DNA from: Mycolicibacterium frederiksbergense
GTDB lineage: Bacteria; Actinomycetota; Actinomycetes; Mycobacteriales; Mycobacteriaceae
Length of the DNA stretch: 64,000 bases
Direction of reading: 5' to 3'
Assembly: GCF_029893345.1 (NCBI RefSeq)
Contig: NZ_JARXVE010000002.1
Location: 434,001 to 498,000 of the forward strand
Positions 6,281 through 41,744 of this stretch are shown piece by piece. Each line of letters opens with the position of its first letter. Position 1 is the stretch's first letter. Both the position numbers and the translations under genes were made by a program. Below the pieces are notes generated by a model, which searched no databases, was not told where the DNA came from, and worked only from the letters and a program-made list of their open reading frames with translations.

Positions 6281-6289
6281 CCCAACCGG

Positions 6290-9859: not shown

Positions 9860-10987
9860 TCAGTCCTCGTCGTAGTCGGCGGCGATATCGGCGTGGGCCT
9901 GTGCGTGTTGTTCGCGCAGTTGAGTGGTCGGTTCGGCGAAGACATAACGGAACAGATCGCCGGCATCGGTGGGTCGGTCAGCGTTCATACCGGCCCGCAG
10001 GGTGGTGGCGCGGTCTTCGGCCTCGGCCGCCACTGCGGCGATATGACCGTCGTCTATCAACCCTTCGAGCAGCAGGTAGCGCTCGAGCCGGGCGATCGGA
10101 TCGCGTTGGATCCAATGCGCCACTTCATCGTTGGTGCGGTACCGGGTTGGATCGTCGGCGTTGGTGTGTCCCTCGACGCGGTAGGTGTGGGCTTCCACGA
10201 TGACCGGACCGTTGCCGTCCAGCACGAACTTTCGGGCTTCGTCCAGCACCGCCAACATCGCCATCGGGTCATTGCCGTCGACCTGCTCGCTGCCGATCCC
10301 GTAGCCGACACCCTTGTGCGCCAACGACGGAGCGATGGTCTGGCGGGCCAGCGGCACGCTGATGGCGAATCCGTTGTTCTGCACCAGGAAGATGACCGGT
10401 GCGTGGAAAACGGCAGCGAAGTTCAGTGCCTCGTGGAAGTCGCCTTCGCTGGTAGCCCCGTCGCCACACAATGCCAGCACCACGGCCCCTGTGTCCCTGC
10501 GGGTCTGAGCGTGGGCCAGTCCGGCGGCATGCAGTAACTGGGTCGCCAGTGGTGTGCACTGCGGTGCGGTGCGGTGGCGGACCGGGTCGTAGCAACAGTG
10601 CCAGTCGCCGGCCAGCATGCCGAGGATCTCGACGGGGTCGATACCGCGAGTGGTCAGCGCCATCGAATCTCGGTACGTCGGAAACAGCCAGTCATTGGCG
10701 TGCAGAGACATCGCGGCCGCGATCTGGCAGGCCTCCTGGCCCCGCGAAGACGGATAGACGGCCAGTCGTCCCTGCTTGGTCAACGCCGTTGCCTGCTCGT
10801 CGAAACGGCGACCCAAGACCATGTTTCGATACATCTGCACGAGTCGCGGTGGTGCCGGGCGCGGATAGCGCGCGGTGCGGCCGGTGAGGCGGCCGGCGGG
10901 GTCGAGGTACTGCACGGGAGTGTCGGCCGGAAGGAACTTGGCGTACCCCGCATCGACCGAGGTTTTCATCGAATCGATCGCCGTCAC
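9860..10987 (-). CDS. bkdA: 2-oxoisovalerate dehydrogenase E1 alpha subunit
   Basis: Alpha subunit of the ThDP-dependent E1. 375 residues from a GTG at 10987 preceded by a good GGAGG. The ThDP/Mg motif runs from CGDGATSEGDFHEALNFA to VIFLVQNNGFAIS. First gene of the operon, divergent from an Lrp-type regulator across a 168-base gap that is more AT-rich than the coding DNA around it. With the valine dehydrogenase on the other side of the regulator, this points to branched-chain amino acid catabolism rather than pyruvate oxidation. Confidence 0.93.
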   Translation of the reverse strand: MTAIDSMKTSVDAGYAKFLPADTPVQYLDPAGRLTGRTARYPRPAPPRLVQMYRNMVLGRRFDEQATALTKQGRLAVYPSSRGQEACQIAAAMSLHANDWLFPTYRDSMALTTRGIDPVEILGMLAGDWHCCYDPVRHRTAPQCTPLATQLLHAAGLAHAQTRRDTGAVVLALCGDGATSEGDFHEALNFAAVFHAPVIFLVQNNGFAISVPLARQTIAPSLAHKGVGYGIGSEQVDGNDPMAMLAVLDEARKFVLDGNGPVIVEAHTYRVEGHTNADDPTRYRTNDEVAHWIQRDPIARLERYLLLEGLIDDGHIAAVAAEAEDRATTLRAGMNADRPTDAGDLFRYVFAEPTTQLREQHAQAHADIAADYDED

Positions 10988-11155
10988 AGTTGCCTCCAGA
11001 GTCGTATGTCCGCACCCAATGTGTTCCTCAATCCTGGGGTTTTATCGCATAGGTGCCACTCAACTGCGATATTCGGAGATGTATTGCGCACAATTGCTGA
11101 CTGCGACTACATATTGTCTTTTCAATCCACAGTTGCAGACGAGGAGACCGAACAC
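10988..11155. promoter_or_regulatory. Divergent control region of bkdABC-lpdA and the Lrp-type regulator
   Basis: 168 bases between two divergent starts, with AT-rich patches (for example GATATTCGGAGATGTATTG and ACATATTGTCTTTTC) unlike the surrounding GC-rich DNA. Lrp/AsnC proteins usually bind such divergent regions upstream of their own gene. I can see the GAGGAG site at 11141-11146 for the regulator and GGAGG for bkdA, but no clear symmetric operator. Confidence 0.5.
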
Positions 11156-12742
<1,587 letters not shown>

Positions 12743-12841: not shown

Positions 12842-14083
12842 CTAGCGCCCGTTGTCGTGCGTTCCTGACGACACACTGCGATATACCGTGCCACGGAGCA
12901 CCACCGTTCGCACCCGCGCGGATAGATCCCGCACGCTGAAGTCGGTGCCGTCCAACAGCACCATGTCGGCTCGTTTCCCGGGGGCCAGCTCACCGATTTC
13001 GGCATCCGCGCCGAGCAGTTCGGCGGCCGAGGTGGTGGCGGCCCGTAGCGCGTCGACGTCGGAGATGCCCTGCTTGCTCATCAGCGCCAGCTCACCCAAA
13101 TTGTCTCCGTGCCGGGCGATCCCGGCGTCGGTGCCCATCGCGATGCGTACTCCCGCGGTGTAGGCGAGTCGCAGCGATGCCTCGTGTGCCTCGAGCACGT
13201 TGGCGACCTTGGCCCGGGTGGCATCGGTGATCCCGCCCGAGGTCCGCGCCTGCGCGAGGATGGCGTGTGGCGCGGATAGTGTTGGTACCAGCCAGGTTCC
13301 GCTCTCCAGCATCATGGCGACAGCCTCATCGTCGAGGTACACCCCGTGTTCGATCGAACGGACGCCGGCGCGGACGGCGTTTTTTATGCCCTGGGTGCCC
13401 TGTGCGTGTGCCATGACATGAACCCCGGCGGCCCGGGCCTCGACCATCATTGCCGCAAGTTCGTCGGCGGCCAGATGCGCGCGGTGCGGGTCGCTGCGCG
13501 GGCTGATCACGCCGCCGCTGGTCGCCACCTTGATCACATCGGCCCCGGCGCGGACGAGTTCGCGGACCTTTCGGCGCATTTCGTCGACCCCGTCGACCAC
13601 GGTCGGCGGACAACCGGGGTGCGGCGGCCACAGGGCGTGGACGCACTCACCCGAGGCCATCCAGGAGTCGCCGTGGCCCCCGGTCTGGCTGAGCATGCCG
13701 ATCGCGATCTGCATATCAGGGCCTTCGACCAACCCCGTGGCGACCGCCTGTTTCACGCCGAGGTCGGCCCCGGCGGCGTCACGCACTGTCGTGATACCTG
13801 CGCGCAGGGTCAGTCGAAGATTTCGTGCCGCCTGAAAGAACCTGAGCGAGAACGGCTGTTGGATGAGCCGCATGGTGTCGACGTCGTCGAGCGTGACATG
13901 GACATGGCAGTCGATGAATCCCGGAACTACTAGTTGGCCGCTGGCATCCAGGCCGGTGTCGCCGTCGAGGCCCGGGCCCACCTCGACGATGCGCTCGCCG
14001 TCGATGACGACATCGGCTGGTGCGGCGGTTCCTGAAACCGGATCGAAGACGTGCCCGCCGTGTACCAGAAGTCGCGGCCTCAC
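12842..14083 (-). CDS. Amidohydrolase family protein (metal-dependent, imidazolonepropionase-like)
   Basis: TIM-barrel metal-dependent hydrolase acting on an unidentified amide, lactam or ester. The GTG at 14083 overlaps the TetR stop (GTGA) and gives 413 residues; an ATG 13 codons upstream would overlap TetR by 43 bases. Metal-site residues in order: HVHV after GFIDC (the HxH motif), lysine in DVIKVATSGG, His in VHVMAHAQG, His in SIEHGVYL, and Asp in MGTDAGI. Co-transcribed with the TetR gene and divergent from the molybdenum hydroxylase cluster, it probably belongs to the same pathway. Relatives are variously called imidazolonepropionase-like or Xaa-Pro dipeptidase; the substrate is open. 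Confidence 0.85.
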   Translation of the reverse strand: MRPRLLVHGGHVFDPVSGTAAPADVVIDGERIVEVGPGLDGDTGLDASGQLVVPGFIDCHVHVTLDDVDTMRLIQQPFSLRFFQAARNLRLTLRAGITTVRDAAGADLGVKQAVATGLVEGPDMQIAIGMLSQTGGHGDSWMASGECVHALWPPHPGCPPTVVDGVDEMRRKVRELVRAGADVIKVATSGGVISPRSDPHRAHLAADELAAMMVEARAAGVHVMAHAQGTQGIKNAVRAGVRSIEHGVYLDDEAVAMMLESGTWLVPTLSAPHAILAQARTSGGITDATRAKVANVLEAHEASLRLAYTAGVRIAMGTDAGIARHGDNLGELALMSKQGISDVDALRAATTSAAELLGADAEIGELAPGKRADMVLLDGTDFSVRDLSARVRTVVLRGTVYRSVSSGTHDNGR

Positions 14084-14709
14084 CGGTGCGTCGCATCCGG
14101 TCCGTACAGCGCGTTGATCCATATCGTGGACAAGGCGGCGGTGACGGCTGCTTCGTCGGTGAACGGGCGCCGTCCGAATGCCGCCAGCAGGTACCGCTCG
14201 TTCATCCAGGTCAGTGCGCGCGCCACCTCAACGGGTTCGGATATCCGAGAGAGCGACGCCGCGACATCGGCCTCGATGCGTCGTGCGGTGGCCGCGGCCA
14301 ACCGTTCGGCGAGTGCCTCGTACAGAGCACCCACTTCGGGGTCGTGTCGTGCGGTATCGGAGATCGCCTGGATCAGCCGGCCGTGCTCGACGAAAACTGC
14401 GGTCAAGCCTTCAAGGCTGCGACGAAGTTCGGCGACCGGATCATCGGAGTCGGTCATCCAGTCGTCTGCGACGTGGTCGAGTTCGAGCCCGACGTCGTCG
14501 AGCATCGCCATAAGCAGGTGTTGACGATCGTCGAAATGGCGATAGAACGCAGTGCGTGCCACTTCGGCTGCGGAGGTGATGTCGTCAAGCGAGATCTCCG
14601 CCCAGGGCTGCTGCTCGAGCAGTGTGTGTGCGGCGTCGAGTAGGCGGCGCCGGGCATCGCGGCGGTGCTGGCGTCGACGTGCCTGCAGATCAGTCTGTCG
14701 CGTGGTCAC
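14080..14709 (-). CDS. TetR family regulator
   Basis: 209 residues, GTG start. An arginine-rich N-terminus (RRRQHRRDARRRLLDAA) is followed by a TetR helix-turn-helix (ISLDDITSAAEVARTAFYRHF) and a variable ligand domain. It is divergent from the LLM oxidoreductase gene and overlaps the amidohydrolase gene, so it is the likely local repressor of both arms of the cluster. Palindromes in the divergent gap are candidate operators. The effector is unknown. Confidence 0.9.
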   Translation of the reverse strand: MTTRQTDLQARRRQHRRDARRRLLDAAHTLLEQQPWAEISLDDITSAAEVARTAFYRHFDDRQHLLMAMLDDVGLELDHVADDWMTDSDDPVAELRRSLEGLTAVFVEHGRLIQAISDTARHDPEVGALYEALAERLAAATARRIEADVAASLSRISEPVEVARALTWMNERYLLAAFGRRPFTDEAAVTAALSTIWINALYGPDATHR

Positions 14710-14732
14710 CGGACCAGTCTGTCATAGCTATG

Positions 14733-14768
14733 GACACTAAGTGGAACAATAACCTTGACACGGTGTCA
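14733..14768. promoter_or_regulatory. Two palindromes in the TetR / LLM oxidoreductase divergent promoter
   Basis: CATAGCTATG at 14733-14742 is a perfect 10-base palindrome, and TGACACGGTGTCA at 14756-14768 is a perfect 13-base palindrome about a central G. Both lie in the 120-base gap between the divergent starts. The second overlaps TTGACA, a plausible -35 for the rightward operon. They are plausible TetR operators; binding is inference. Confidence 0.5.
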
Positions 14769-14829
14769 CAGTTGTAGTTACGTAATGCCGACCCAAGCAT
14801 CATGCATTGTGAGAAGAAGGGGTCCATTC

Positions 14830-15819
14830 GTGCGACTTAGCCTGTCGTTCACCGGGTTCGGGTCGATTCTTGCGGACCTGCCGGCGGTCCGGGCCGCCGA
14901 TGAATGTGGGTTCGACGGCGTCTGGTACGCCGAACACATCTGTGCCCACGACGCGGTAGTGCCGGCGACTGTATACCTGCGCGAAACCGAGCGACTCGAG
15001 CTGAGCCTGATGGGCATCAGTGCCGCCGGACGTCATCCCGGGGTTGCTGCGATGGAACTGGCCTCACTGGCTGAGATCGCGCCGGGGCGGGTGCGCGCGG
15101 CAGTCGGCACCGGCGTGCCCGACATGATCGCCAAGCTCGGCAGGTCGGTCGAGAAGCCGGTCGCCTCGACGATCGCACTACATCAGGCGCTCAAGACCGC
15201 GCTCGCCGGCGGAAACCTCACCGCGGACTACCCGGGGTTCAGCTTCCAGCAATACAAGTTGAACCCGCTGACGGCGCCCCCCGCGCTCGACATCATGGCG
15301 GTTCGTCCGCGGATGGTCCAAGCTGCTGCCCAGTATGCCGACGGTGTCTGCCTGAGCGCCGGATCGTCGCGCAGATACCTCGCCGATACCGTCAAACGGG
15401 TTGAGGCCGCGCTGGCCGAGGCCGGGCGGCCGCGTGCGGGATTCCGAATATCGGCCGTCGTCACCGCCTTCATCACCGACGATGTGCAGAAGGCGCGGAT
15501 GCAGGTGGCCTCGATGCTCTCGACATTCGACGCCGCCACCACCGAATACCTTGCCGCCGGAGCTATCCCGGACGGGGCGCTGGTCGATGCGGTGGCCCGG
15601 GGCGGACCGTTTGAGGCGGTGCGGGTGTTCACCCCTGAGGTGATCGACGCGGTCGGGATGGTGTGTCCGCCCGACGGGATCGCCGATGCGCTCGCGGCGT
15701 ATGCCGAAACCGGGGTCGACGAGATCGCGATAGCACCGTTCGCGCCACCGGATCAGGTGCCCGACCTCATTCGGCTGATGGCCGAGAACCGTCCACTTCT
15801 CGCCGCAAAACCCGCATAA
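14830..15819 (+). CDS. LLM class (F420-dependent type) oxidoreductase
   Basis: Luciferase-like TIM-barrel oxidoreductase; mycobacterial members of this size usually use F420, some use FMN. The GTG at 14830 follows an AGAAGG site and gives 329 residues starting VRLSLSFTGFGS. Conserved features include DECGFDGVWYAEHI near the N-terminus, LASLAEIAPGRVRAAVGTGVP, and a C-terminal GIADALAAYAETGVDEI segment. First gene of an eight-gene run to 22091. It could act as monooxygenase or dehydrogenase on the pathway substrate; the reaction is unknown. Confidence 0.87.
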   Translation: MRLSLSFTGFGSILADLPAVRAADECGFDGVWYAEHICAHDAVVPATVYLRETERLELSLMGISAAGRHPGVAAMELASLAEIAPGRVRAAVGTGVPDMIAKLGRSVEKPVASTIALHQALKTALAGGNLTADYPGFSFQQYKLNPLTAPPALDIMAVRPRMVQAAAQYADGVCLSAGSSRRYLADTVKRVEAALAEAGRPRAGFRISAVVTAFITDDVQKARMQVASMLSTFDAATTEYLAAGAIPDGALVDAVARGGPFEAVRVFTPEVIDAVGMVCPPDGIADALAAYAETGVDEIAIAPFAPPDQVPDLIRLMAENRPLLAAKPA

Positions 15820-15833
15820 CAGAACGGAATACG

Positions 15834-16271
15834 ATGATGTCTGAGACTTTGATCGGCGCCGACGCGCAGGAGATCCTGGCGCTGCATCGCGAATTCGTGG
15901 AGGCCAACGGCCCCCTCGATTCCAGTTACCTGCGACGGCGGGTGACCGCGGTGCCCGACGAACTGGTCTGGTACAACCTCAACGGTTCGGTCTACGTCGG
16001 GCAGGATCACATCGCGCAGCTGTGGGACATGCTCTCGGCGACCATGGGCGGTCAGGCGATGAGTGCCGAGCTGCGCGACGAACGCGTCGAGGTGGTCGGC
16101 GATGTCGCGTGGGTGACCTACCTCAACCACTACAAGGCCGACTTCGGCAATCTCGGCAGCTACAACGCCGGGATGCGCAGCACCGAGATCTGGCGCCGCC
16201 GTGCAGGCAAATGGGAACTGGTCCATACCCACTTCTCCACCCACGTGCCCAACCAGATGGGCGGGCGTTGA
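15834..16271 (+). CDS. NTF2-like / SnoaL-type small protein
   Basis: 145 residues (ATG at 15834, or 15837). The predicted fold is a cone-shaped NTF2-like barrel: N-terminal helix LGADAQEILALHREFVE type, then strands such as ELVWYNLNGSVYVGQDHI, VEVVGDVAWVTYLNHY and TEIWRRRAGKWELVHTHFS, the usual SnoaL/DUF4440 ending. Such proteins act as small isomerases, hydratases or dehydratases. It starts 15 bases after the LLM gene, so is probably co-transcribed. No catalytic residue can be assigned with confidence. Confidence 0.78.
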   Translation: MMSETLIGADAQEILALHREFVEANGPLDSSYLRRRVTAVPDELVWYNLNGSVYVGQDHIAQLWDMLSATMGGQAMSAELRDERVEVVGDVAWVTYLNHYKADFGNLGSYNAGMRSTEIWRRRAGKWELVHTHFSTHVPNQMGGR

Positions 16272-16302
16272 CCGCCCGGCGCAGGTCAGCGTAGGCCAAG
16301 CG

Positions 16303-17109
16303 ATGGAGCGGTTTTCGGTATTGGGACCGGCCGGTGACATCTCCGGTCTGCGCCGGGTCACGGACGGTGCCGGGGCGCCGGTGGTCCTGGTCCACGGCGT
16401 CAACGGTGCAGCCGTGCAGTGGTCGGGCGTCGCCGAACGGCTCACGGACCGCACCACAATCGCAGTTGACCTACGCGGACATGGAGATTCGGAATCAGGT
16501 GACGGCCGGTACGGAGCCGAGGACTATGCCGGCGATGTGGCCGCGGTCATGGACGGTCTCGGCGTCGATCGTGCCCACCTGGTGGGCACCTCGTTCGGAG
16601 GAGGGGTGTGCCTCACGCTCGCCGCGGCGCAGCCCGACCGGATCCGGTCGGTGGCGATCCTCGGCGGCGCGCTCAGCGTCACCGGCACGGCCGATGCGGA
16701 TGCCGCGGTCGGCGCGCTGCATCTGCTGGGGACGGAACCGTTCTTCGAACAGGTGGCGGCGGCAAGCTTCGCGCCCGGTTCCGATGCGGAGCTGATCCGC
16801 GACTCCGTGCGGTTGGCTGCCCGCAATGACGCGATCACGGTCGAGCGCATCCTGCGCGCGGCGTTCTCCGCTGACGTCTCGGCGGCAGCGGCCGGTGTGA
16901 CCGCGCCTGCCTTGGTGTTGACGGGTGAGCTCGATCAAACCTGCCCGCCGGCACTGGGCGTCGCCCTTGCCGCGGCGCTCCGGACCGACTGCCGGGTGTT
17001 GCCTGGGCGCGGTCACATGGCACATGTGGAGGACCCAGACCTGATCGCGGGGTTGATCGATGCGCAACTGCGCCAGGTCGATTCCGCCGATACCGCCCGG
17101 AAAGGCTGA
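16303..17109 (+). CDS. Alpha/beta hydrolase
   Basis: 268 residues from ATG 16303; upstream codons in this frame offer no ATG or GTG before the preceding gene's stop. The oxyanion-hole motif is VHGVNG, the nucleophile elbow GTSFGG (Ser), the acid is probably Asp in GELDQTCP, and the base His in GRGHMAHVEDP. These give a full Ser-Asp-His triad. In a catabolic operon it could hydrolyse an ester or thioester, or cleave a C-C bond in a ring-opened intermediate; sequence cannot choose between these. Confidence 0.86.
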   Translation: MERFSVLGPAGDISGLRRVTDGAGAPVVLVHGVNGAAVQWSGVAERLTDRTTIAVDLRGHGDSESGDGRYGAEDYAGDVAAVMDGLGVDRAHLVGTSFGGGVCLTLAAAQPDRIRSVAILGGALSVTGTADADAAVGALHLLGTEPFFEQVAAASFAPGSDAELIRDSVRLAARNDAITVERILRAAFSADVSAAAAGVTAPALVLTGELDQTCPPALGVALAAALRTDCRVLPGRGHMAHVEDPDLIAGLIDAQLRQVDSADTARKG

Positions 17110-17115
17110 GGTCCG

Positions 17116-17979
17116 GTGCATCCGGCTCCGTTCGACTATCTGGCGGCCAGATCCGTTGAGCAAGCGTGTCAGGCCCTGAGTGAGGATCCCGGTGGTACTC
17201 GTGTGCTGGCCGGCGGTCAGAGTCTGTTGCCGCGCCTGGTCCGCCGGCTCGAGCGGCCGGACCGCCTGGTCGACATCACCCGGATCGCGGAGCTGCAGGC
17301 ACTGAGCGCGACGCCAGACGCGCTGCACATCGGGGCGGCCGTCACCCAGCGCACCGGCGAGCTGTTCCCCAGACTCGGCGAATTCGGTGTTCTGGCACAG
17401 GCGCTCCCACGCGTTGGCAAGACCACGACCCGAAACCGCGGCACGATCTGTGGCAGCATCGCCCATGCCAATCCGGCGGCTGAACTCGGCGTCTGTCTAC
17501 TGGCACTCGGCGGTGAAGTCACCGCCGTCTCGACCGAGGGATCGCGCAGTATCGGGGCCCAGGAGTTCTTCGTCGCGCCGTTCCGTACCGCCCTGCGCAC
17601 CGATGAACTGGCCCACACGGTGACGTTCCTGCGCCCCGCCGCGGGCACCGTTGGATACTTCGACGAGGTCACCCTTCGCGGTGCCGGCGACACACCGTTG
17701 GTCAGCGCCGCGGTCACCAGCACTGTCATCGACGGCCGGGCCGGCGATGTGCGCATCGTGGTCGGGGGTGCCGGACAAGTGCCGGTACTGGTTTCGTCGG
17801 CGATCACCGGCGTACTTGACGGAGCCCTCGACGACGGCGCGGTGGATCACGTCAGTAGCGCGGCTGCTGCCGAACTCGAATTTCACGGCGACGCACACGG
17901 TTCCGCCGATCACCGTAGTCGGCTGGCGGTGCATATCGTTGCCCGGCTGTTGCGCCGACTCAGGGAGAACTTGCCATGA
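17116..17979 (+). CDS. Molybdenum hydroxylase medium subunit (FAD-binding, CoxM-like)
   Basis: FAD subunit of a three-component molybdenum hydroxylase; it passes electrons from the 2Fe-2S subunit to the final acceptor. 287 residues, GTG start. The FAD motif VLAGGQSLLPRL is near residues 35-46 and a second conserved block TTTRNRGTICGSIAHANPAAE near 104-124, followed by the CO_deh_flav_C domain. The ATGA overlap with the small subunit shows tight coupling. Gene order M-S-L is that of cox/xdh-type operons. Confidence 0.92.
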   Translation: MHPAPFDYLAARSVEQACQALSEDPGGTRVLAGGQSLLPRLVRRLERPDRLVDITRIAELQALSATPDALHIGAAVTQRTGELFPRLGEFGVLAQALPRVGKTTTRNRGTICGSIAHANPAAELGVCLLALGGEVTAVSTEGSRSIGAQEFFVAPFRTALRTDELAHTVTFLRPAAGTVGYFDEVTLRGAGDTPLVSAAVTSTVIDGRAGDVRIVVGGAGQVPVLVSSAITGVLDGALDDGAVDHVSSAAAAELEFHGDAHGSADHRSRLAVHIVARLLRRLRENLP

Positions 17980-18464
17980 CTTTCGCGATCGAAGTTCGGG
18001 TGAACGGCCGGACGGTCCAGGCCACCGTGCCGCCACGGCTGTCGCTGGCCGATTTCCTACGCGAACGGCTCGGTCTCACCGGTACCCACATCGGCTGTGG
18101 ACAGGGGTTGTGCGGCAGCTGCAATGTGCTGCTCGACTCACGTTCCGTGCGCTCGTGTCTGACGCTGGCGGTGCAGGCCGACGGCACGGATGTGGTCACT
18201 GTCGAGGACCTGAGCGGGCCTGAACTCTCCACCGTCCAGGACTGCCTGGTCCGGCATCGCGCACTCCAATGTGGGTTCTGTACACCGGGATTCGTTGTGC
18301 TCATCGAGGAATTGCTGACCGAGGTCGGGGCCGGCCTGCGGCCAACACCGGAGGAACAGCGAGACCGGCTGGCCGCATCCCTGTGTCGTTGCACCGGATA
18401 TGCGCCGGTACTGGCCGCAGTACAGGAACTTGTCGCCGCAAAGATCTCCGAGCAGTCCCGATGA
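17976..18464 (+). CDS. Molybdenum hydroxylase small subunit (2Fe-2S, CoxS-like)
   Basis: 162-residue iron-sulfur subunit. The plant-type 2Fe-2S cluster motif is GCGQGLCGSCNVLL with a later Cys in RSC. The second, helical cluster domain has CGFCTPG and CRCTGY. All eight ligand cysteines appear to be present, so it should be functional. It overlaps the gene before and the gene after by four bases each. Confidence 0.94.
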   Translation: MTFAIEVRVNGRTVQATVPPRLSLADFLRERLGLTGTHIGCGQGLCGSCNVLLDSRSVRSCLTLAVQADGTDVVTVEDLSGPELSTVQDCLVRHRALQCGFCTPGFVVLIEELLTEVGAGLRPTPEEQRDRLAASLCRCTGYAPVLAAVQELVAAKISEQSR

Positions 18465-20806
18465 CCGCGGACCGTCACGTCGGAGACTGTCCGCCGGGAC
18501 TACATCTGCAGCGGCTGGTCGCAGGCGGCGGCCGCTACCTCGCCGACGAAAGCGCCGCCGGTGAACTGCATCTCGTGGTGGTGCGTTCCCAGGAACCGCA
18601 TGCGCGGATCAGCGTTGACACCCGCCGCGCCCTGATGGCGCCGGGCGTGCATGCAGTGCTGGTCGGCGCTGATGTCCGCGATGCCACCGACCCGATGGGG
18701 ATGATGTGGAAGGCACAGGTACAGGCCGAGGCGCCCACCTGGTGCCTGGCCGGTGACACCGTGCGCTATGTCGGCGAACCGATCGCCGCCGTGATCGCCG
18801 ACGATGCCTACCTGGCCGAGGACGCCGCTGAACTGGTCGACGTGAGCTACCGGCCGTTGCCGGTCGTGGTCGAACCATCCGCCGACAGCCAGCCGCCGCT
18901 GTACCAGCACTGGTCTGACAATGTGTTCGGCCGCACCAGATTTGAGGCGGGCGATGCCGCGGCCGCGCTGGCGGGGTCCGCGGTGACGATCAGCGGGCGA
19001 TACGTCAGTAACCGGGTGGCGGGATTGGCGCTGGAGACCCGCGGGGTGCGCGCTGCCTGGGACATCACCGGGAAATCGGTGACCATGTGGACCTCGACTC
19101 AGTCGCCGCACCAGGTCCGGACTTCGTTGAGCGAAACCTTGCGGATCCCCGAGGACCGGGTCAGGGTGCTATGCCCCGACGTCGGGGGCGCATTCGGCAA
19201 CAAGGCCTGCGCCTACATCGAGGAAACGCTGGTGGCCTTCGCCGCCCGCGTCGTACGCCGGCCGGTGCGGTGGATCGAGAGCCGCGCGGAGGCATTCACT
19301 GCGACCGTCCACGGTCGCGGCACCGCAGTCGACCTCGAGCTGGGGCTCACCGCCGACGGAACCATCACCGGCCTGCATGCCACCGTCGTACTCGACTGCG
19401 GCGCCACCCCGTACATGGTGGGGCTGGGCACCGGCGTCGTCACTGCGGCAATGGTGCTGGGACCCTACCGGATTGCCGATGCGCTCACCGAATTGGTAGC
19501 GGTGGTCACCAACAAGACGCCGATTGGCGCCTACCGCGGATTCGGAATGCCCGAGGCCACTTTCGCGATCGAACGCGCGCTGGACGACGGCGCGCGCCGG
19601 CTCGGGATCGATCCGATCGAGATTCGCAGGCGCAACCTGCTACGACCCGAGGAACTGCCGTACTGGACGGCGGCGATGATGTGTCTGGACAGCGGCCGCT
19701 ACGGCGAACTGTTGGACCTGGTGTCCGACACCGTGGACTGGCCGGGCGCTCAGCGGGCGGCGGCCGAGGCCCGCGCGGCCGGGCGGCTGGTGGGCGCCGG
19801 GATCGCCTTCTATGTCGAGGCAACCAACTTCGGTCCGTCGCTGACTGCCGCGATGATGGGCATCAACAATGCCGGGCACGATCGCGCCGTGGTGCGTATG
19901 GACGCCACGGGGCTCGTCACGGTGTTCACCGGGCAGATGCCGATGGGGCAGGGGCTGGAGACCGTACTGGCCCAGGTGGCGGCCGACGAGCTCGGCGTTC
20001 TTCTTGATTCGGTCTCGGTGATCTGCGGTGACACCCTGGCGTGCCCGTATACCGGGTATGGCAGCGGGGGTAGCCGGGGTGCGGGCGTGGCCGGGTCGGC
20101 GGTGATGGTGGCCGCGCGCCGGCTGCGCGACCGGATGCGGGTGATCGCCGCGCACCTGCTGGATGTTTCCGATCCCGCTGCGCTGCATGACGATAACGAC
20201 GGGTTCGGCACCGACTCCGGCGACCGCATTTCCGTCGCTGCGGTCGCCGCGGCGGCCTACAACGCGAATGATCTACCGCCCGACACCGAACCCGGACTCG
20301 AGGCGGCCTACACCTACGATCCTCGCGGGTTCGCCTTCTCCTACGGTGCCGTCGCTGCGGTGGTCGAGATCGACCGGGACACCGGCTCGGTGGGGATCCA
20401 GCGCCTGGTGTTTGGGCACGACTGCGGTGTTCAACTCAACCCGGCCAATGTGGCCGCCCAGATTCGCGGTGGTGTGGCACAGGGTATCGGTGCCGCACTC
20501 TATGAGCAGCTGCCGTACACATCGGATGGGCGGCCCGTGGTGGAGTCGCTGTGGGATTACTTTCCGCCGCTGCCTGCGAATGTGCCACCCGTTGAACTCG
20601 TCCACCTGGAAACCCCGTCGCCATTCTCACTCAATGGGGCCAAAGGCGCGGGGGAGAGCGGTGTGATTCCCATTCCGGCGGTGTTGGCCAACGCGGTGCG
20701 CGACGCGCTGGGCACGGATGAGGCCAGCAATGTCGTGAATGCCGTCCCGATGACTGCCGAACGCCTTCTGGCCGCAATTGACTTACACGACACCACAACC
20801 CAGTGA
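18461..20806 (+). CDS. Molybdenum hydroxylase large subunit (molybdopterin cytosine dinucleotide type)
   Basis: Catalytic subunit that hydroxylates a substrate with water-derived oxygen. The ATG at 18461 overlaps the small subunit (ATGA); 781 residues. The catalytic Glu is in GAKGAGESG near residue 728. Where CO dehydrogenase has the active-site loop AYRCSFR, this protein has GAYRGFGMPEA, so it is not a CO dehydrogenase of the classic form. It belongs to the wider xanthine/nicotine/quinoline/isoquinoline-type hydroxylases. Nearby lactam/amide hydrolase and LLM genes suggest an N-heterocycle or similar substrate, but this is inference. Confidence 0.91.
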   Translation: MTADRHVGDCPPGLHLQRLVAGGGRYLADESAAGELHLVVVRSQEPHARISVDTRRALMAPGVHAVLVGADVRDATDPMGMMWKAQVQAEAPTWCLAGDTVRYVGEPIAAVIADDAYLAEDAAELVDVSYRPLPVVVEPSADSQPPLYQHWSDNVFGRTRFEAGDAAAALAGSAVTISGRYVSNRVAGLALETRGVRAAWDITGKSVTMWTSTQSPHQVRTSLSETLRIPEDRVRVLCPDVGGAFGNKACAYIEETLVAFAARVVRRPVRWIESRAEAFTATVHGRGTAVDLELGLTADGTITGLHATVVLDCGATPYMVGLGTGVVTAAMVLGPYRIADALTELVAVVTNKTPIGAYRGFGMPEATFAIERALDDGARRLGIDPIEIRRRNLLRPEELPYWTAAMMCLDSGRYGELLDLVSDTVDWPGAQRAAAEARAAGRLVGAGIAFYVEATNFGPSLTAAMMGINNAGHDRAVVRMDATGLVTVFTGQMPMGQGLETVLAQVAADELGVLLDSVSVICGDTLACPYTGYGSGGSRGAGVAGSAVMVAARRLRDRMRVIAAHLLDVSDPAALHDDNDGFGTDSGDRISVAAVAAAAYNANDLPPDTEPGLEAAYTYDPRGFAFSYGAVAAVVEIDRDTGSVGIQRLVFGHDCGVQLNPANVAAQIRGGVAQGIGAALYEQLPYTSDGRPVVESLWDYFPPLPANVPPVELVHLETPSPFSLNGAKGAGESGVIPIPAVLANAVRDALGTDEASNVVNAVPMTAERLLAAIDLHDTTTQ

Positions 20807-20815
20807 GGAGAGAAT

Positions 20816-21202
20816 GTGAAGTACGCATCGCAGGAATGGCTGAACCGACAGGCCGAGCTGCAGCAGGCGTTCGCACCGCGGCCCGGTGCCTCGGCGCGGG
20901 TGCAGTACCGGCTCACCCAGGCGCCCGAGGTGGGCGAGATCCGGTACTACGCCGACGTTCAGGACGGCCGTGTCGTCACACAGACGCTCGGCGATGATCC
21001 GGCGGCCGACGGCACCATGTCGTCCTCGTACTCGGATTCGATCGCGATGCTGCGCGGGGAGCTGGCTCCCACCGCGGCATTCATGGAGGGCCGGGTCAAG
21101 GTCACCGGTGACGTCGCGAAGCTGGGTGCGCTCATGCCGATCACTCAAACCGCCGAATACAAGCGGCATTACGCGCAGCTGGTCGAGGAAACCGAGTTCT
21201 GA
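20816..21202 (+). CDS. SCP2-like sterol/lipid-carrier-type protein
   Basis: 128 residues, GTG start nine bases after the large subunit. The pattern of strands (EIRYYADVQDGRVVTQTL), an acidic segment, and the ending GRVKVTGDVAKLGALMP is that of SCP2 domains, which hold a hydrophobic ligand in a tunnel. Within the operon it could bind a hydrophobic substrate or intermediate. No signal peptide. Family call is from the overall pattern and is moderately firm. Confidence 0.65.
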   Translation: MKYASQEWLNRQAELQQAFAPRPGASARVQYRLTQAPEVGEIRYYADVQDGRVVTQTLGDDPAADGTMSSSYSDSIAMLRGELAPTAAFMEGRVKVTGDVAKLGALMPITQTAEYKRHYAQLVEETEF

Positions 21203-21203
21203 G

Positions 21204-22091
21204 ATGACGTTCTCGCTGCTTGCGCGTGATCCATCGACGGGGCAGCTGGGGGTTGCCTCGCAGTCCCACTATCTCGGCGTCGGCTCCGTGGTCACCTGGG
21301 CGGAGGCCGGGGTCGGTGCGGTGGCGACGCAGGCGTTCGCCGTCCGTGCCTACGGCCCACGCGGTCTGGCGCTGATGCGAGCAGGCGCGCCCGCCGATGA
21401 GGCACTGAGTCGGCTGCTCGACGAAGATGCCGACCGCGAGATTCGGCAGATCGCCTTTCTGGACGCTGACGGGAACATCGGAATCCACAGTGGGACACGG
21501 TGCGTCGGTGCGGCGGGGGTGGCGCGCGGCGAACATGCGGTCGCACTGGGCAACATGCTCGACAACGACGCCGTGCCTGCCGCGATGGTGCGTGGCTTCG
21601 AGGCCGCCGACGGAGACTTGGCACATCGGCTGGTCTCCGGTTTGCGTGCCGGTGACTGTGCGGGCGGCGATATCCGCGGCCGCCAGTCAGCGGCCCTGCT
21701 GGTGGTCGACGGTCAGCACACCGATGCGCCATGGGACGGAGTTGTGCGCGAGCTGCGTGTCGAGGACCACGCCGATCCCATCGCCGAGCTCGCCCGGCTG
21801 GTCGACCTCAACGATGCCTTCGATCTCATGTCGCAGGTGGTGTTCGACCCGAACGGTGCAGTTCTCGGCCCCGTGGCCGACGCAGATTTCGCGGGTGGCG
21901 CGGCAGCGCTGGCGGGTGCCCGCGAGGTGCTCGGCGACAACCCGGAGGCGACGTTCTGGTCGGCCGTCCTGCACACCCGGTGGGGGCGCTCGGCCGAGGC
22001 TGCGCGCCTGCTCGCGGAGGGCGCGCAGATCAACCCCCGCTTGCCGGCGTTCCTCCAGCGTCTCGGCGAAGTCGGGATCGTGCCGAGCTGA
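21204..22091 (+). CDS. DUF1028 family Ntn-hydrolase-like protein
   Basis: 295 residues starting MTFSLLARDPSTGQLGVAS, the typical DUF1028 N-terminus in which a residue near position 4 (Ser) becomes the nucleophile position of an Ntn fold. Further conserved segments are GAVATQAFAVRAYGPRGLALM, GIHSGTRCVG and GNMLDNDAV. A C-terminal extension (after about residue 210) is helical and may bind a partner. DUF1028 genes often sit near amide or peptide catabolism genes. Last gene of the run, ending at a strong bidirectional hairpin. The reaction is unknown. Confidence 0.8.
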   Translation: MTFSLLARDPSTGQLGVASQSHYLGVGSVVTWAEAGVGAVATQAFAVRAYGPRGLALMRAGAPADEALSRLLDEDADREIRQIAFLDADGNIGIHSGTRCVGAAGVARGEHAVALGNMLDNDAVPAAMVRGFEAADGDLAHRLVSGLRAGDCAGGDIRGRQSAALLVVDGQHTDAPWDGVVRELRVEDHADPIAELARLVDLNDAFDLMSQVVFDPNGAVLGPVADADFAGGAAALAGAREVLGDNPEATFWSAVLHTRWGRSAEAARLLAEGAQINPRLPAFLQRLGEVGIVPS

Positions 22092-22095: not shown

Positions 22096-22120
22096 CCGCC
22101 GGCCCGATCAGGGCCGGCGG
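22096..22120. terminator. Bidirectional terminator hairpin between DUF1028 gene and paaK
   Basis: Perfect 10-bp GC-rich stem CCGCCGGCCC / GGGCCGGCGG with loop GATCA. It starts four bases after the DUF1028 stop and overlaps the last codons and stop of the convergent paaK. It could serve both transcripts; no U-tract is present, as is common in mycobacteria. Confidence 0.7.
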
Positions 22121-23427
22121 TCGATCAGTCGGCTGGCCTTACCGAGGGACCGCTCGATCGACCCTGGATCCACCACCGCCACCTCGACACTCACGCCGAT
22201 ACGGTTCTTGATCCGCTGGATCAGCGACGCCCCGGCCAGGTTTCGTTGTTCGGAGGTGGCATTCCGGCGCCCTTCCACCCGTACCGTCAGCTGGTCGAGG
22301 CGTTCCTGCCGTTCCAGCACGCACTCGAAATGCGGGGCTAGCGCGGGTTCGGTCAGTATCAGTTCCTCGATCTGGGTGGGGAACAAGTTCACGCCCCGCA
22401 GGATGATCATGTCGTCGGTGCGGCCGGTGATCCGCTCCATCCGCCGCATCGTGCGCGCGGTCCCGGGTAGCAGCGTGGTGAGGTCGCGGGTGCGGTAGCG
22501 GATGACGGGGAAGGCCTCCTTGGTCAGCGAGGTGAACACCAGCTCGCCCTCGCTGCCGTCGGGCAGCACCTCCAGGGTTTCGGGATCGATGACCTCGGGG
22601 TAGAAGTGGTCCTCCCAGATGTGCAGGCCGTCCTTGGTTTCCGCACATTCCTGGGCCACACCGGGGCCGATGACTTCGGACAGACCGTAGATGTCGACGG
22701 CGTCGATGCACATCCTTCGTTCCAGTTCGGCGCGCATCTCGTCGGTCCACGGCTCGGCACCGAAGACTCCGATGCGCAACGATGTTTCGCTCGGATCGAG
22801 GCCGGCGGTCTCCATCGCGTCGATGATGGTCAGCATGTAGGACGGGGTGACCATGATGGCGTCGGGCGTGAAGTCCGTTATCAGCTGGATTTGGCGTTCG
22901 GTCATACCGCCGGACATCGGGATGACGGTGCAGCCGAGTTTCTCGGCACCGTAGTGCGCCCCGATGCCGCCGGTGAAAAGCCCGTAGCCGTAGGCGATAT
23001 GAACCTTGTCCGTGGAGCGCACGCCGGCGGCCCGCAGCGACCGGGCCACGAGGTTGGCCCAGGTGTCGATATCGCCGGCGGTGTAGCCGACCACGGTGGG
23101 CCGGCCGGTGGTACCCGATGAGGCGTGTAGCCGCGCGATCTGCGACTGCGGTACCGCGAACATGCCGAACGGATAGTTGGCCCGCAGATCGGATTTGGTG
23201 GTGAACGGGAAAGCCGACAGGTCGCTCAATTGGGTGAGGTCGCCGGGATGCACACCTTTGGCGTCAAAGGCTGCTCGGTAATGGGGCACGTTGTCGTAGG
23301 CGTGTTGCAGCGACCACTTCAGCCGGGTCAGCTGCAGCGCCGAAATCTCGTCACGGGACGCCGTTTCGATGGGTTCGAGTTCGTCGGGTGCGGTGGACTG
23401 AGCGAAAGGGGCGGCAAGCTCGGTCAT
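22108..23427 (-). CDS. paaK: Phenylacetate-CoA ligase
   Basis: ATP-dependent activation of phenylacetate to phenylacetyl-CoA, first step of the pathway. The ATG at 23427 is preceded by GAGGA at good spacing and gives 439 residues; an ATG seven codons upstream would overlap paaE. The adenylate-forming signature SSGTTGRPTVVGYT is near residues 94-107, with the conserved YGLSEVIGPGVAQEC and YRTRDLT blocks. Last gene of the leftward paa operon. Confidence 0.94.
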   Translation of the reverse strand: MTELAAPFAQSTAPDELEPIETASRDEISALQLTRLKWSLQHAYDNVPHYRAAFDAKGVHPGDLTQLSDLSAFPFTTKSDLRANYPFGMFAVPQSQIARLHASSGTTGRPTVVGYTAGDIDTWANLVARSLRAAGVRSTDKVHIAYGYGLFTGGIGAHYGAEKLGCTVIPMSGGMTERQIQLITDFTPDAIMVTPSYMLTIIDAMETAGLDPSETSLRIGVFGAEPWTDEMRAELERRMCIDAVDIYGLSEVIGPGVAQECAETKDGLHIWEDHFYPEVIDPETLEVLPDGSEGELVFTSLTKEAFPVIRYRTRDLTTLLPGTARTMRRMERITGRTDDMIILRGVNLFPTQIEELILTEPALAPHFECVLERQERLDQLTVRVEGRRNATSEQRNLAGASLIQRIKNRIGVSVEVAVVDPGSIERSLGKASRLIDRRP

Positions 23428-23440
23428 GGCATTCCTCGGT

Positions 23441-24520
23441 TCAGGCATCGAAGTCGACGGTGACGGTGTCGCTGGTCGGGAAAGACTGGCAGGTCAGTAC
23501 GAAACCCGCGGCTACTTCGTGCGGTTCGAGGGCATAGTTGCGTCGCATGTCGACCTCGCCCGCTGTCACTTTGGCGCGGCATGTCCCACACACCCCGCCC
23601 TTGCACGCGAACGGCAGGTCATCGCGGGAACGTTGCGCGGCATCGAGCACGGAGGTGTCGCGCGGCAGACTCAGGGCGGCGGCACGGCCATCGAGGATGA
23701 TCGTGACCTCGCTGCGGCGGCCGGGATCGGCCGTTTCGACATGATGGACCGGTTCCGGGGCAACATCTTCGACGTAGAACAACTCTCGATGAATGCGGTC
23801 GTCGGGGACGCCGAGATCGCCGAGCACCCGCTCGGCGTCGAGCACCATGCCGTGCGGCCCGCACAGCCAGAAGTGGTCGACGGCCGAGACCGGGACCAGG
23901 CCGTCCAACAGCCGGCGGAGCCGATCGGCGTCGAGGCGCCCGCTGAACAGGTCCACGGCGCGGTGCTCGCGGGAGAGCACGTGCACCAGCTCCAACCGTG
24001 ACCCGTAGCTGTCCTTGAGGTCGGCGAGTTCGTCGGCGAACATCGCCGAGCTGGCGCGGCGGTTCCCGTACAACACCACGACGTGCGAATCCGGTTGCTG
24101 CAGAACAGTGGCCGCGATTGACAGGATCGGGGTGATACCCGATCCGGCGGCGATGAGCACGTGTCGGCCGCCGGTTCCCGGTGGGGCGGCGAAGCTACCG
24201 GATGGGGTCTGCACCTCCACCTGATCGCCGGACTTGATGTTGCGCACCAACCATTCGGAGAACATCCCGCCGGGAACCTCGCGCACACCGATGCGCAACG
24301 CGCCGCCCGCCGGGGAACACACGGAATAGGTCCGGCGTTCCTCCCGGCCGTCGACCGTCTTACGCAACGTCAGTGACTGGCCGGCCAGGAACGAGAACTG
24401 CGGCTTCAGGTCCTCGGGCACGGCGAAGGTGACGGCGGCGGCGTCCTCGCACAGTGGTTGAACCTCAGCGACCCGCAGCCGGTGAAAGGGCTGGTTGCGC
24501 CGGGCTTGCATCGTGGTCAC
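23441..24520 (-). CDS. paaE: Phenylacetyl-CoA epoxidase reductase subunit
   Basis: Reductase that passes electrons from NAD(P)H via FAD and a 2Fe-2S cluster to the PaaA diiron site. 359 residues, GTG start preceded by GGAG and directly abutting the paaD stop. Order: FAD-binding barrel with RRTYSVCSP, NAD domain with AAGSGITPILS, and a C-terminal plant-type ferredoxin domain with CKGGVCGTCRA and a last Cys in LTCQS. Confidence 0.94.
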   Translation of the reverse strand: MTTMQARRNQPFHRLRVAEVQPLCEDAAAVTFAVPEDLKPQFSFLAGQSLTLRKTVDGREERRTYSVCSPAGGALRIGVREVPGGMFSEWLVRNIKSGDQVEVQTPSGSFAAPPGTGGRHVLIAAGSGITPILSIAATVLQQPDSHVVVLYGNRRASSAMFADELADLKDSYGSRLELVHVLSREHRAVDLFSGRLDADRLRRLLDGLVPVSAVDHFWLCGPHGMVLDAERVLGDLGVPDDRIHRELFYVEDVAPEPVHHVETADPGRRSEVTIILDGRAAALSLPRDTSVLDAAQRSRDDLPFACKGGVCGTCRAKVTAGEVDMRRNYALEPHEVAAGFVLTCQSFPTSDTVTVDFDA

Positions 24521-25045
24521 TCAGATCTCCTTCACCCGCTCGAACGGTTCGGTGCACGATCGGCAGCGGTGCAGCGATTTGCATGGTGTCGCACCGAATT
24601 CCGAGGTGAGTTCGGTGTCGACCGAGCCGCACACCGGGCACACGACGACCGGGCGTCGCGGGGTCAGTGTCAACGGCACGGGGCCGGCGGTCGGTGCCAC
24701 CGGGCGGCCTGGTGGGGCGATGCCGTGATCGGCGAGCTTGCGTCGCCCGGCTTCGGTGATCCATCCCGAACTCCATGCCGGAGTCAGTGTGGTCCGGACC
24801 TGTACGTCAGTGAATCCGGCAGCTCGCAAGGCGTGCACCAGATCGCCGCGGATGGTGGCCATCGCCGGACAGCCCGAGTAGGTCGGGGTGATCGTGACGA
24901 CGACCCGGCCATCGCCCGTACCGCGGACGTCGCGCAGCACGCCGAGGTCGGCCAGGGTGAGCATCGGCATCTCGGGATCGATCACCTCCGACGCCACGCG
25001 GCGGGCCAGATCCAGCCGCGTCGTGGTCGCGCGCATCGTGCTCAC
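24521..25045 (-). CDS. paaD: Phenylacetyl-CoA epoxidase maturation protein PaaD
   Basis: MIP18/DUF59-type protein needed for assembly of the epoxidase, probably for iron-sulfur or diiron maturation. The GTG at 25045 overlaps the paaC stop (GTGA); 174 residues. The DUF59 part has DPEMPMLTLADLG and TYSGCPAM; a zinc-ribbon-like tail carries CPVCGS and CRSC. Longer in-frame starts would run into paaC. Confidence 0.92.
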   Translation of the reverse strand: MSTMRATTTRLDLARRVASEVIDPEMPMLTLADLGVLRDVRGTGDGRVVVTITPTYSGCPAMATIRGDLVHALRAAGFTDVQVRTTLTPAWSSGWITEAGRRKLADHGIAPPGRPVAPTAGPVPLTLTPRRPVVVCPVCGSVDTELTSEFGATPCKSLHRCRSCTEPFERVKEI

Positions 25046-25959
25046 CACCGGCCCATCGGATGCGCGCGGGCGATGCACTGCATCTCGGCGAGCAGGTAGC
25101 CCATCGCCTCGGTGTGAATGCCGTCGCGTCCGGTCCGCCCGCCCGGCGCCGCCTTGGCTGCCACGGCCGGGATCGTCAGCCTCGCCTCCCGCAGCACCTG
25201 CCCGATGACGGAGTCGAATTCGGATCGCAGCGTAGCGGGGTCCGCTCCGGCACCGCTTGCGGCCAACCGGATTTCGACCGGATGGGGGAGGAACAGTTCG
25301 TCCACGTAGGGCCAGACCGTGGTGACCGCGGCCTCGGTGCGCCGCCGGGATTCCGCCGTGCCGCCCGACAGTGTGACCAGCCAGCGGGCGGCGTAATCGC
25401 GGTGGTAGGTCACCTCTTTGACCCCCTTCTCGGCCACCGCAGCCAGCACCGAATCGCGGGAACCGCGCAACCGCTGCAGTAATGCCAGTCGGTAGGTCGA
25501 GAACACCAACAGCCGTGCGATGGAGGTGGCGAAGTCACCGTTGGCCAGCTCGACCAGGCGCACGTTGCGAAACTGGGCCTCGTCGCGGAAGAACGCCAGC
25601 GCGTCCTCGGCCGGTACGGGTGATCCCGGGGGCATTGCGGGCACGACACCCGGATCGGCGGCGGCCGCCCGTGCCAGCAACAGCCGGGCCTGGCCGAGGA
25701 GATCCAGGCCGATGTTGGCCAGCGCGACCTCCTCCTCCAATTCCGGTGCGCGGGTACACCATTGGGTCAGCCGCTGGGCGGAGACCAGCGCATCGTCACC
25801 GAGCATCAGGCAGTAGGTCGCCAGGTCCGCACCGTCGACGCCGTCGGCCAGTGTGGTGTCCACTCCGGCCAGCGGGTCGTCGAATTCGGTGCCGAATGCC
25901 CACTGGTCGTGGGAGTCGATGTTGACGAGGCCGGTATAGGCCGAATCATGGTCGATCAT
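25042..25959 (-). CDS. paaC: Phenylacetyl-CoA epoxidase subunit PaaC
   Basis: Structural ferritin-like subunit of the PaaABCE multicomponent epoxidase. 305 residues, ATG with GGAGG upstream; slightly longer than usual because of an N-terminal stretch of about 35 residues before the conserved YCLMLGDDALVSAQRL. Conserved segments include DLLGQARLL and YHRDYAARWLVTLSGGT. Together with PaaA it forms the core heterotetramer. Confidence 0.93.
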   Translation of the reverse strand: MIDHDSAYTGLVNIDSHDQWAFGTEFDDPLAGVDTTLADGVDGADLATYCLMLGDDALVSAQRLTQWCTRAPELEEEVALANIGLDLLGQARLLLARAAAADPGVVPAMPPGSPVPAEDALAFFRDEAQFRNVRLVELANGDFATSIARLLVFSTYRLALLQRLRGSRDSVLAAVAEKGVKEVTYHRDYAARWLVTLSGGTAESRRRTEAAVTTVWPYVDELFLPHPVEIRLAASGAGADPATLRSEFDSVIGQVLREARLTIPAVAAKAAPGGRTGRDGIHTEAMGYLLAEMQCIARAHPMGRW

Positions 25960-25987: not shown

Positions 25988-26290
25988 TCACATATGGGGG
26001 ACGGCGTCGGGGATGTCGTAGAAGGTGGGGTGGCGGTAGATCTTGTCTCCGCTGGGGGCAAAGAACGGGTCCTTCTCGGCGGGGCTGGACGCGGTGATGG
26101 CCGCCGAGCGCACCACCCAGATACTTACGCCCTCGTTGCGCCGGGTATACACGTCGCGGGCGTGCCGCAACGCCATCGCATCGTCGGCGGCGTGCAGGGA
26201 TCCCACGTGGACGTGATTGAGACCACGCTTGCCGCGGACGAATACTTCGTAGAGCGGCCAGTCGATATCGATGGGACCGTCGCTGTTCAT
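25988..26290 (-). CDS. paaB: Phenylacetyl-CoA epoxidase subunit PaaB
   Basis: 100-residue subunit bridging PaaAC units. Typical segments: [37 protein letters not shown] and the C-terminal [13 protein letters not shown]. It overlaps the paaA stop by four bases and is separated from paaC by 28 bases. Confidence 0.95.
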
Positions 26291-28054: not shown

Positions 28055-28082
28055 GTGTGCTCCTTGTCCGGTAGTGGCGTGA

Positions 28083-29677: not shown

Positions 29678-29709
29678 AGCCCACCCTTCGTTGTCTGCTG
29701 TCCAGAATA

Positions 29710-29723
29710 ACCGACCGTTCGGT
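29710..29723. promoter_or_regulatory. Inverted repeat, probable PaaR operator (paaF / paaR side)
   Basis: ACCGACCGTTCGGT fits the symmetric pattern ACCGAnCGnTCGGT; 12 of 14 positions match the reverse complement. It lies between the divergent paaF and paaR starts. A related ACCGAACG half-site is found upstream of paaZ (30471). Confidence 0.6.
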
Positions 29724-29787
29724 CTGTAATCAAGGGTCGGCTCGCCGCGCTGGACAACACGTGCGGGTCGGCGACCCGCGAAGTGCG

Positions 29788-30470: not shown

Positions 30471-30492
30471 ACCGAACGAATGGACGGTTGGT
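30471..30492. promoter_or_regulatory. Imperfect inverted repeat upstream of paaZ, probable PaaR operator
   Basis: The outer arms ACCGAACG and CGGTTGGT of a 22-base element 14 bases before the paaZ start share the ACCG..CG core with the site at 29710. It overlaps the expected +1 region and sits just upstream of the AAAGGAG ribosome-binding site. Confidence 0.5.
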
Positions 30493-30505
30493 AAAGGAGT
30501 CCCGA

Positions 30506-41702: not shown

Positions 41703-41744
41703 GAGCCCGCGCGCCGCTGGAGCCGGGGCTCGACTCGGGGCACG

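Follow-up and report, generated by a model that had tools for sequence, protein, structure and literature searches.

Introduction

Quinaldine and quinoline degradation is among the closest described counterparts of the system reported here, a set of ten genes at positions 12842-22091 of a 64,000-nucleotide stretch of Mycolicibacterium frederiksbergense DNA (the window; contig NZ_JARXVE010000002.1, positions 434,001 to 498,000). In that route alpha/beta-hydrolase-fold and amide hydrolase steps follow the molybdenum (Mo) hydroxylase, and we know of no link between it and an F420-type LLM-class (luciferase-like) oxidoreductase, a DUF1028 protein, or phenylalanine dehydrogenase (PheDH) and the phenylacetate (Paa) genes. 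Picrate degradation has, to our knowledge, no Mo hydroxylase and no amide hydrolysis. The genes that neighbour the set belong to phenylalanine/phenylacetate catabolism, which runs through PheDH or a transaminase, a 2-oxoacid dehydrogenase and the Paa enzymes; we know of no version of it that contains the ten-gene front end. We propose, at roughly even confidence, that the ten genes feed a phenylalanine/phenylacetyl-CoA degradation block as its substrate-specific front end. The linkage is observed, and the chemistry and the substrate are what we infer.

With quinaldine and quinoline degradation the set shares a Mo hydroxylase that, as parts of the account of Arthrobacter Rue61a describe (qoxLMS, qor; PMC3534580), is the first to attack the N-heterocycle. 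The likeness to picrate degradation is the F420- and LLM-dependent reduction of aromatic rings in actinobacterial catabolism; sections of PMC8498797 describe LLM hydride transferases that use F420H2 to reduce the ring. The reductive uric acid pathway, as set out in parts of PMC12507026, combines a Mo enzyme with an amidohydrolase, an M20 peptidase and a reductase that in Chloroflexota is putatively of the F420/luciferase type, and we compared its XdhD, YgfK or putative F420 luciferase-type reductase, SsnA, HyuA and YgeY. As far as those parts go, it resembles our locus in its Mo hydroxylase-family enzyme, in ring reduction and in ring opening by an amidohydrolase, and an M20 peptidase occurs in the looser clusters described below. 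Unlike that pathway, our block has a prolidase-type amidohydrolase and adds NTF2-like, alpha/beta hydrolase, SCP2-like and DUF1028 genes as well as phenylalanine/Paa neighbours. We do not assign the block to it: the amidohydrolase is not of the SsnA type, and HyuA, YgeW and YgeX are not among the annotated block genes, nor is a hydantoinase or a pyridoxal phosphate lyase. The ochratoxin amidohydrolases ADH3 and LlADH and the COG1228 prolidases are of the same family as the block amidohydrolase, whose metal ligands are intact, although the similarity is moderate and the activity a prediction.

A first-pass annotation of this DNA knew of no described pathway with this gene set. Full-text searches for the set, its neighbours and single parts, a coverage that leaves out most subscription papers, likewise listed no paper on the set. 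A query for diketopiperazine degradation gene clusters yielded nothing, and in the available main text of a survey of Paa evolution (PMC13186573) the terms 'molybd' and 'phenylalanine dehydrogenase' are absent. The parts are of known kinds; their combination is new to us.

Results

Conserved linkage to phenylalanine and phenylacetate genes

The ten genes form the middle of a block of about 26 kb (6290-32560), with PheDH, an Lrp-type regulator and a 2-oxoacid dehydrogenase complex on one side and Paa genes on the other. In all eight loci that we found with the full ten-gene set, PheDH, the 2-oxoacid dehydrogenase and Paa genes accompany it. In a sample of 148 genomes of the genus, its own included, DUF1028 at 70% identity or above, PheDH at E 1e-90 and PaaA at E 1e-60 each occur in seven genomes, and these are the identical seven; a DUF1028 match of any kind occurs in 38. 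Conserved co-occurrence, the check proposed at first pass, was borne out, as the ten genes are present in 6/6 of the other genus genomes with DUF1028 at this level (at least 70%), each with the whole block, and also in Nocardia araoensis. With tblastn, orthologs of the amidohydrolase and SCP2-like genes turned up in full ten-gene loci alone, apart from a 30% partial amidohydrolase match in locus L103.

The order of the genes, although conserved in most loci, is less constant than their company. In Nocardia araoensis (L076) a single 66-kb contig carries the ten genes, XdhC, Lrp, the E1-E2-E3 genes of the 2-oxoacid dehydrogenase, PheDH and Paa in a different arrangement; the XdhC gene comes after DUF1028 there, and a separate contig has a second paaA. 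A fragment of a Mutator-family transposase lies beside PheDH there (L076 20194-20766). The block order is also rearranged in genome G020, and in G020, G038 and G062 the Mo large subunit stands apart and inverted beside a TetR gene, which is the sole copy seen in G020 and an additional one in G038 and G062. These split-off regions (L044 6460-9620, the one with the sole TetR gene; L045 10138-13275; L046 6433-9597) each have their own copy of the operator-promoter element described below.

In the window the block is bordered by era on one side and, on the other, by an amidase gene followed by the decaprenyl diphosphate synthase gene uppS; the two borders fall at 6280-6290 and 32560-32861. In the six relatives none of the window's flanking genes era, uppS and glyS turned up within the roughly 2-16 kb retrieved past the block; G020 has one weak (35%) amidase match 2-3 kb beyond PaaK. 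As far as fetched, the blocks of these relatives have other neighbours, which makes a discrete insertion plausible. A plasmid-borne set was considered and dropped, as the large subunit had no match among plasmid records at E 1e-150. Elsewhere in the window, G+C drops to 0.59-0.62 at 40001-44000, compared with 0.64-0.70 in the remainder.

The molybdenum hydroxylase and the LLM enzyme

Family and domain matches recovered all ten genes in the families named at first pass, and the tight packing of the rightward genes is confirmed by successive intergenic distances of 14, 31, 6, -4, -4, 9 and 1 bases. Three of these plus-strand genes encode the FAD subunit (17116-17979; FAD_binding_5, CO_deh_flav_C), the [2Fe-2S] subunit (17976-18464; Fer2, Fer2_2 and the cysteine motifs) and the large subunit (18461-20806; MoCoBD_1, MoCoBD_2) of a Mo hydroxylase. 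With its molybdenum cofactor and FAD domains, two [2Fe-2S] domains and catalytic Glu, it belongs to the three-subunit enzymes of the xanthine oxidase family. The Glu, already noted as intact, is present in 13/13 aligned sequences, as are the seven checked of the eight expected cysteines of the small subunit; the eighth is seen in the window protein. The nearest solved relative of the large subunit is quinoline 2-oxidoreductase (1t3q, 468 bits), in keeping with the hydroxylase of N-heterocycles that had been suggested, a suggestion that missed the link to phenylalanine and Paa. Active-site loops of CO dehydrogenases carry a Cys that binds copper. An aerobic CO dehydrogenase was rejected, since 1n5w and 8uem have a Cys-containing loop where GAYRGFG stands here and NCBIfam scores fall under the cut-off; a xanthine or purine enzyme was rejected on model scores far under the cut-offs.

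The LLM gene (14830-15819, plus strand; Bac_luciferase), whose GTG start we revised from the sequence, is nearest to F420 enzymes and not to FMN monooxygenases: TIGR03841 gives 118 bits, under its cut-off of 213.65, and FMN-type models give 18-28. Among solved structures the best match is the F420-dependent Mer (72 bits, against 24 for luciferase), and Mer is likewise nearest for the LLM proteins of L056 and L100. We therefore predict from sequence that the enzyme is F420-dependent. The Rut pyrimidine pathway was set aside, as RutA is not among the 20 models that match the LLM protein and the alpha/beta hydrolase scores 47 bits against RutD, with a cut-off of 238.5.

The hydrolases and the remaining proteins

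The amidohydrolase gene (12842-14083, minus strand; Amidohydro_1) most likely begins at a revised GTG, with a 4-base overlap with the TetR stop; a copy in the database is 413 aa long. It adjoins PheDH on the same strand, with 132 bases between them. The best solved structures are the prolidase 3feq (233 bits) and 8ihq (224 bits), a moderate similarity; the latter we take to be ADH3. The metal-ligand motifs are intact in 8/8 aligned sequences, and an HGDN motif is common to the window protein, 8ihq and LlADH. The best curated model is Xaa-Pro dipeptidase, and NF051886 scores 279 bits, below its cut-off of 500, which leaves the protein outside that family. The first-pass annotation noted that amidohydrolases open lactam rings; this one is closest to the prolidase and ochratoxin-amidohydrolase types and far from the lactam-opening hydantoinases. 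Amidohydrolysis of ochratoxin A frees phenylalanine, according to parts of PMC9430628.

The alpha/beta hydrolase (16303-17109, plus strand, start revised from the sequence; Abhydrolase_1) keeps its Ser, Asp and His triad in 12/12 aligned sequences. Its best structural match, at a weak 72 bits, is 3kxp, an alpha-(N-acetylaminomethylene)succinic acid hydrolase; that enzyme acts downstream of pyridine ring opening. On the same strand are an NTF2/SnoaL-like gene (15834-16271; SnoaL_3) and an SCP2-like gene (20816-21202; SCP2).

The last rightward gene (21204-22091; DUF1028) encodes a protein of N-terminal nucleophile (Ntn) hydrolase fold with a helical, TPR-like tail. Thr2 is invariant in 23/23 sequences. 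The predicted model has a predicted local distance difference test score (pLDDT) of 93, and its fold is nearest to 2imh and then to proteasome/Anbu, a modest likeness (template modelling score about 0.3-0.4). This fold, together with the conserved N-terminal nucleophile, places the protein among the Ntn hydrolases, and the function that most readily suggests itself is that of an Ntn amidase, which would use Thr2 once Met1 is removed. DUF1028 was rejected as a marker of the ten-gene system because it is common, with some match in 107/394 genomes of the class. Mo genes are in view at only four of the 80 named DUF1028 loci (L075, L076, L100 and L119), and a full-text literature search found no paper on the family.

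The predicted divergent promoter

Between the TetR gene (14080-14709, minus strand; TetR_N, EthR_C) and the LLM gene lies a palindromic element of the form TGACA-N3-TGTCA, whose window copy is TGACACGGTGTCA (14756-14768). This operator-like element overlaps the -35 box and spacer of a predicted plus-strand promoter, TTGACA-17 bases-TTACGT (14755-14783). The sequence TTGACAYNNTGTCACA is present in 8/8 divergent regions, and three loci have a further copy ahead of the detached large subunit, so that it occurs in all 11 regions examined. The -10 hexamer differs between loci, reading TTACGG in L047 and L048 and TATGGT in L076, and exact TGACAYNRTGTCACA has a single site in its own genome. Two palindromes had been reported: the TGACACGGTGTCA element recurs in all eight ten-gene loci, while CATAGCTATG (14723-14732) was not found in the regions of the relatives that were examined. 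An operator-like element within the promoter is compatible with a TetR repressor acting on it.

The surrounding genes

On the minus strand, to one side of the ten genes, lie E3 dihydrolipoyl dehydrogenase (6290-7807, start uncertain; Pyr_redox_2 and dimerisation domains) and E2 acyltransferase (7654-8868; lipoyl and E3-binding domains), both with homologs in the blocks of the six relatives and Nocardia araoensis, followed by E1 beta (8850-9854; Transket_pyr, Transketolase_C) and E1 alpha (9860-10987; E1_dh). A plus-strand Lrp/AsnC-type regulator (11153-11629, start approximate; HTH_AsnC, AsnC_trans_reg) separates these from the minus-strand L-phenylalanine dehydrogenase (11624-12709), which is named from its nearest solved structure and matches phenylalanine dehydrogenase at 492 bits vs 219 for leucine dehydrogenase.

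The other side begins, again on the minus strand, with phenylacetate-CoA ligase PaaK (22108-23448; TIGR02155 702 bits, cut-off 646), PaaE reductase (23441-24520), PaaD and PaaC (24521-25959) and PaaB and PaaA (25988-27240; PaaA by TIGR02156, 502 bits, cut-off 280). PaaB, PaaC, PaaD and PaaE were named by recognition and position; the relatives and Nocardia araoensis have homologs of PaaE in the same place, and of PaaC and PaaD. Two enoyl-CoA hydratase/isomerase genes (27254-29677, minus strand; ECH_1) precede a second TetR-family regulator (29659-30423, plus strand; TetR_N, TetR_C_24) beside paaZ (30488-32560, plus strand; TIGR02278 981 bits, above cut-off). PaaA, PaaK and PaaZ all exceed their curated cut-offs, which places these genes in the Paa pathway. 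PaaH and PaaJ were not seen among the annotated block genes, and the rest of the genome was not searched for either.

Looser clusters in other genomes

Mo hydroxylase, LLM, NTF2-like, hydrolase and DUF1028 genes also lie together in Pseudonocardia eucalypti (L119), in two genomes of another family (L056 and L057) and in genome G768 (L179). An M20 deacylase of the ArgE/DapE type follows DUF1028 in L056, L119 and L050. The mycobacterial L050 (1695-9287) carries the M20 deacylase, DUF1028, a hydrolase, NTF2, LLM, a cytochrome P450 and an Mce-type gene; a Mo gene is absent from the 13 kb seen, in which the P450 is present. In L054 the DUF1028, NTF2 and LLM genes are accompanied by an oligopeptide-type ABC transporter and another gene of the amidohydrolase family. 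In Bradyrhizobium jicamae (L100, 1395-7950) the order is the end of the Mo large subunit, F420:NADP oxidoreductase, Lrp, CofE, CofD, CofC, CofGH, NTF2, hydrolase and DUF1028, with an LLM gene 7.7 kb beyond the cluster. The four Cof genes are those of F420 biosynthesis, and their place here is indirect evidence for F420 as the predicted LLM cofactor. Near the Pseudonocardia eucalypti cluster there is an S-Me-THD-like gene with PucR-type regulators (L119 12697-14043).

Discussion

The first-pass annotation saw in these genes a complete inducible pathway. A conserved, inducible-looking catabolic set they are; that they are complete on their own is not supported, as they form part of the larger PheDH, 2-oxoacid dehydrogenase and Paa block. 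In the reading that we prefer, the Mo hydroxylase would hydroxylate a nitrogen-containing ring and the LLM enzyme, with F420 as its presumed cofactor, would reduce the hydroxylated ring. The hydrolases would then open it, with DUF1028 as the presumed Ntn amidase, and the prolidase/ochratoxinase-type amidohydrolase would release phenylalanine to PheDH. Since PheDH lies next to the amidohydrolase, phenylalanine is a likely product; the substrate may contain phenylalanine in amide linkage, or may yield phenylpyruvate or phenylacetate. PheDH would convert phenylalanine to phenylpyruvate, E1-E2-E3 would take this to phenylacetyl-CoA, and Paa would carry it into central metabolism. These last steps are established chemistry of their families, and the front-end steps we infer from family membership. 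The TetR protein would be a repressor freed by the substrate or an intermediate.

Several observations weigh against this proposal. The seven genus genomes are related, so their agreement does not amount to seven independent events. In trees the Nocardia araoensis PheDH unit is nearer to Rhodococcus-like ones, and the Nocardia and mycobacterial PheDH and E1 genes need not share one origin, although a single origin is not rejected (approximately unbiased test, p 0.18). PheDH at E 1e-100 occurs in 13/331 genomes of the family, 12 of which lack the Mo large subunit at E 1e-140, the window's own genome being the exception; two further family genomes with a large subunit (40-41% identical) lie outside these 13. 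Lrp/E1 genes adjoin PheDH in 7/12 of the others, no front-end genes were met around the 12 PheDH genes, and one of these genomes has an amidohydrolase match (52%). A PheDH with adjacent Lrp/E1 genes and no large subunit implies that the PheDH unit works alone. The paa region of M. abscessus has 19 flanking genes, left unnamed in the parts of PMC11537035 that describe them, and none of the front-end proteins is named abscessus among the named part of the best 120 matches; together with the PheDH units that lack a front end, this region indicates that phenylalanine and Paa modules need none. The looser clusters point the same way. No PheDH or Paa match was found in the fetched stretches of L119, L056, L057 and L179, and the PheDH level was reached in none of four looser-type genomes (G158, G181, G816 and G817, the last being that of L100), which have matches at the level of leucine dehydrogenase (38-41%) or none. 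In favour of the proposal, all four do have paaA at another place in the genome. The LLM proteins of the ten-gene type share merely 23-29% identity with those of the looser types.

One alternative is a set that degrades an N-heterocycle unrelated to phenylalanine and merely shares a block with an aromatic-acid module. It would suit the looser clusters that do without adjoining PheDH/Paa genes, a PheDH unit and paa genes that occur without the front end, and a TetR gene and operator-like element of the set's own, the element having one exact match genome-wide. We think this rather unlikely, because PheDH, E1-E2-E3 and Paa are kept in 8/8 ten-gene loci across differing orders and neighbours, and because orthologs of the amidohydrolase and SCP2-like genes were met only there, the partial L103 match aside. 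The Paa neighbours could instead be served by a Mo enzyme of the phenylacetaldehyde type that supplies phenylacetate, the other genes handling a phenethylamine-type amide. In favour of this, all three Mo subunits match glyceraldehyde dehydrogenase best among the curated models (below cut-off), and the large subunit scores 301 bits against 4zoh, a putative oxidoreductase chain that we presume to be glyceraldehyde oxidoreductase. Quinoline 2-oxidoreductase scores well above this, however, and the classical bacterial aldehyde oxidoreductases give 101-178 bits; an aldehyde route also leaves PheDH, the F420-type LLM, DUF1028 and the amidohydrolase unexplained, and we regard it as improbable.

It is more improbable still that the genes serve detoxification and not growth, a phenylalanine-containing, ochratoxin-like toxin being modified and cleaved and its phenylalanine salvaged. 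The amidohydrolase is near the ochratoxin-type enzymes, and foreign aromatics are targets of F420 LLM enzymes according to parts of PMC8498797, but the accompanying paa set, even in a Nocardia that has another paaA, better fits use as a carbon source.

A broader and distinctly speculative extension of the front-end proposal, which we consider unlikely, is that the locus represents a class of catabolic modules. In these, oxidation by a Mo hydroxylase or P450 and reduction by an F420H2-dependent LLM enzyme would be followed by opening by the hydrolase and DUF1028, and an exchangeable hydrolase (M20 in the looser clusters, prolidase-type here) would free an amino acid. Here the cargo would be phenylalanine: for example, a phenylalanine-derived pyrazinone or cyclic dipeptide would pass through a dihydroxypyrazine and a diketopiperazine to a dipeptide that is split, with the module's own route to phenylacetyl-CoA attached.

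With the front-end proposal, what was an orphan gene set becomes a scheme that can be tested and whose exit is known, since its products should emerge as phenylalanine, phenylpyruvate or phenylacetyl-CoA. For the widespread DUF1028 family it offers a place in metabolism and predicts chemistry of the Ntn type. If true, it would also connect F420 with molybdenum hydroxylases in the aerobic catabolism of more than one phylum.

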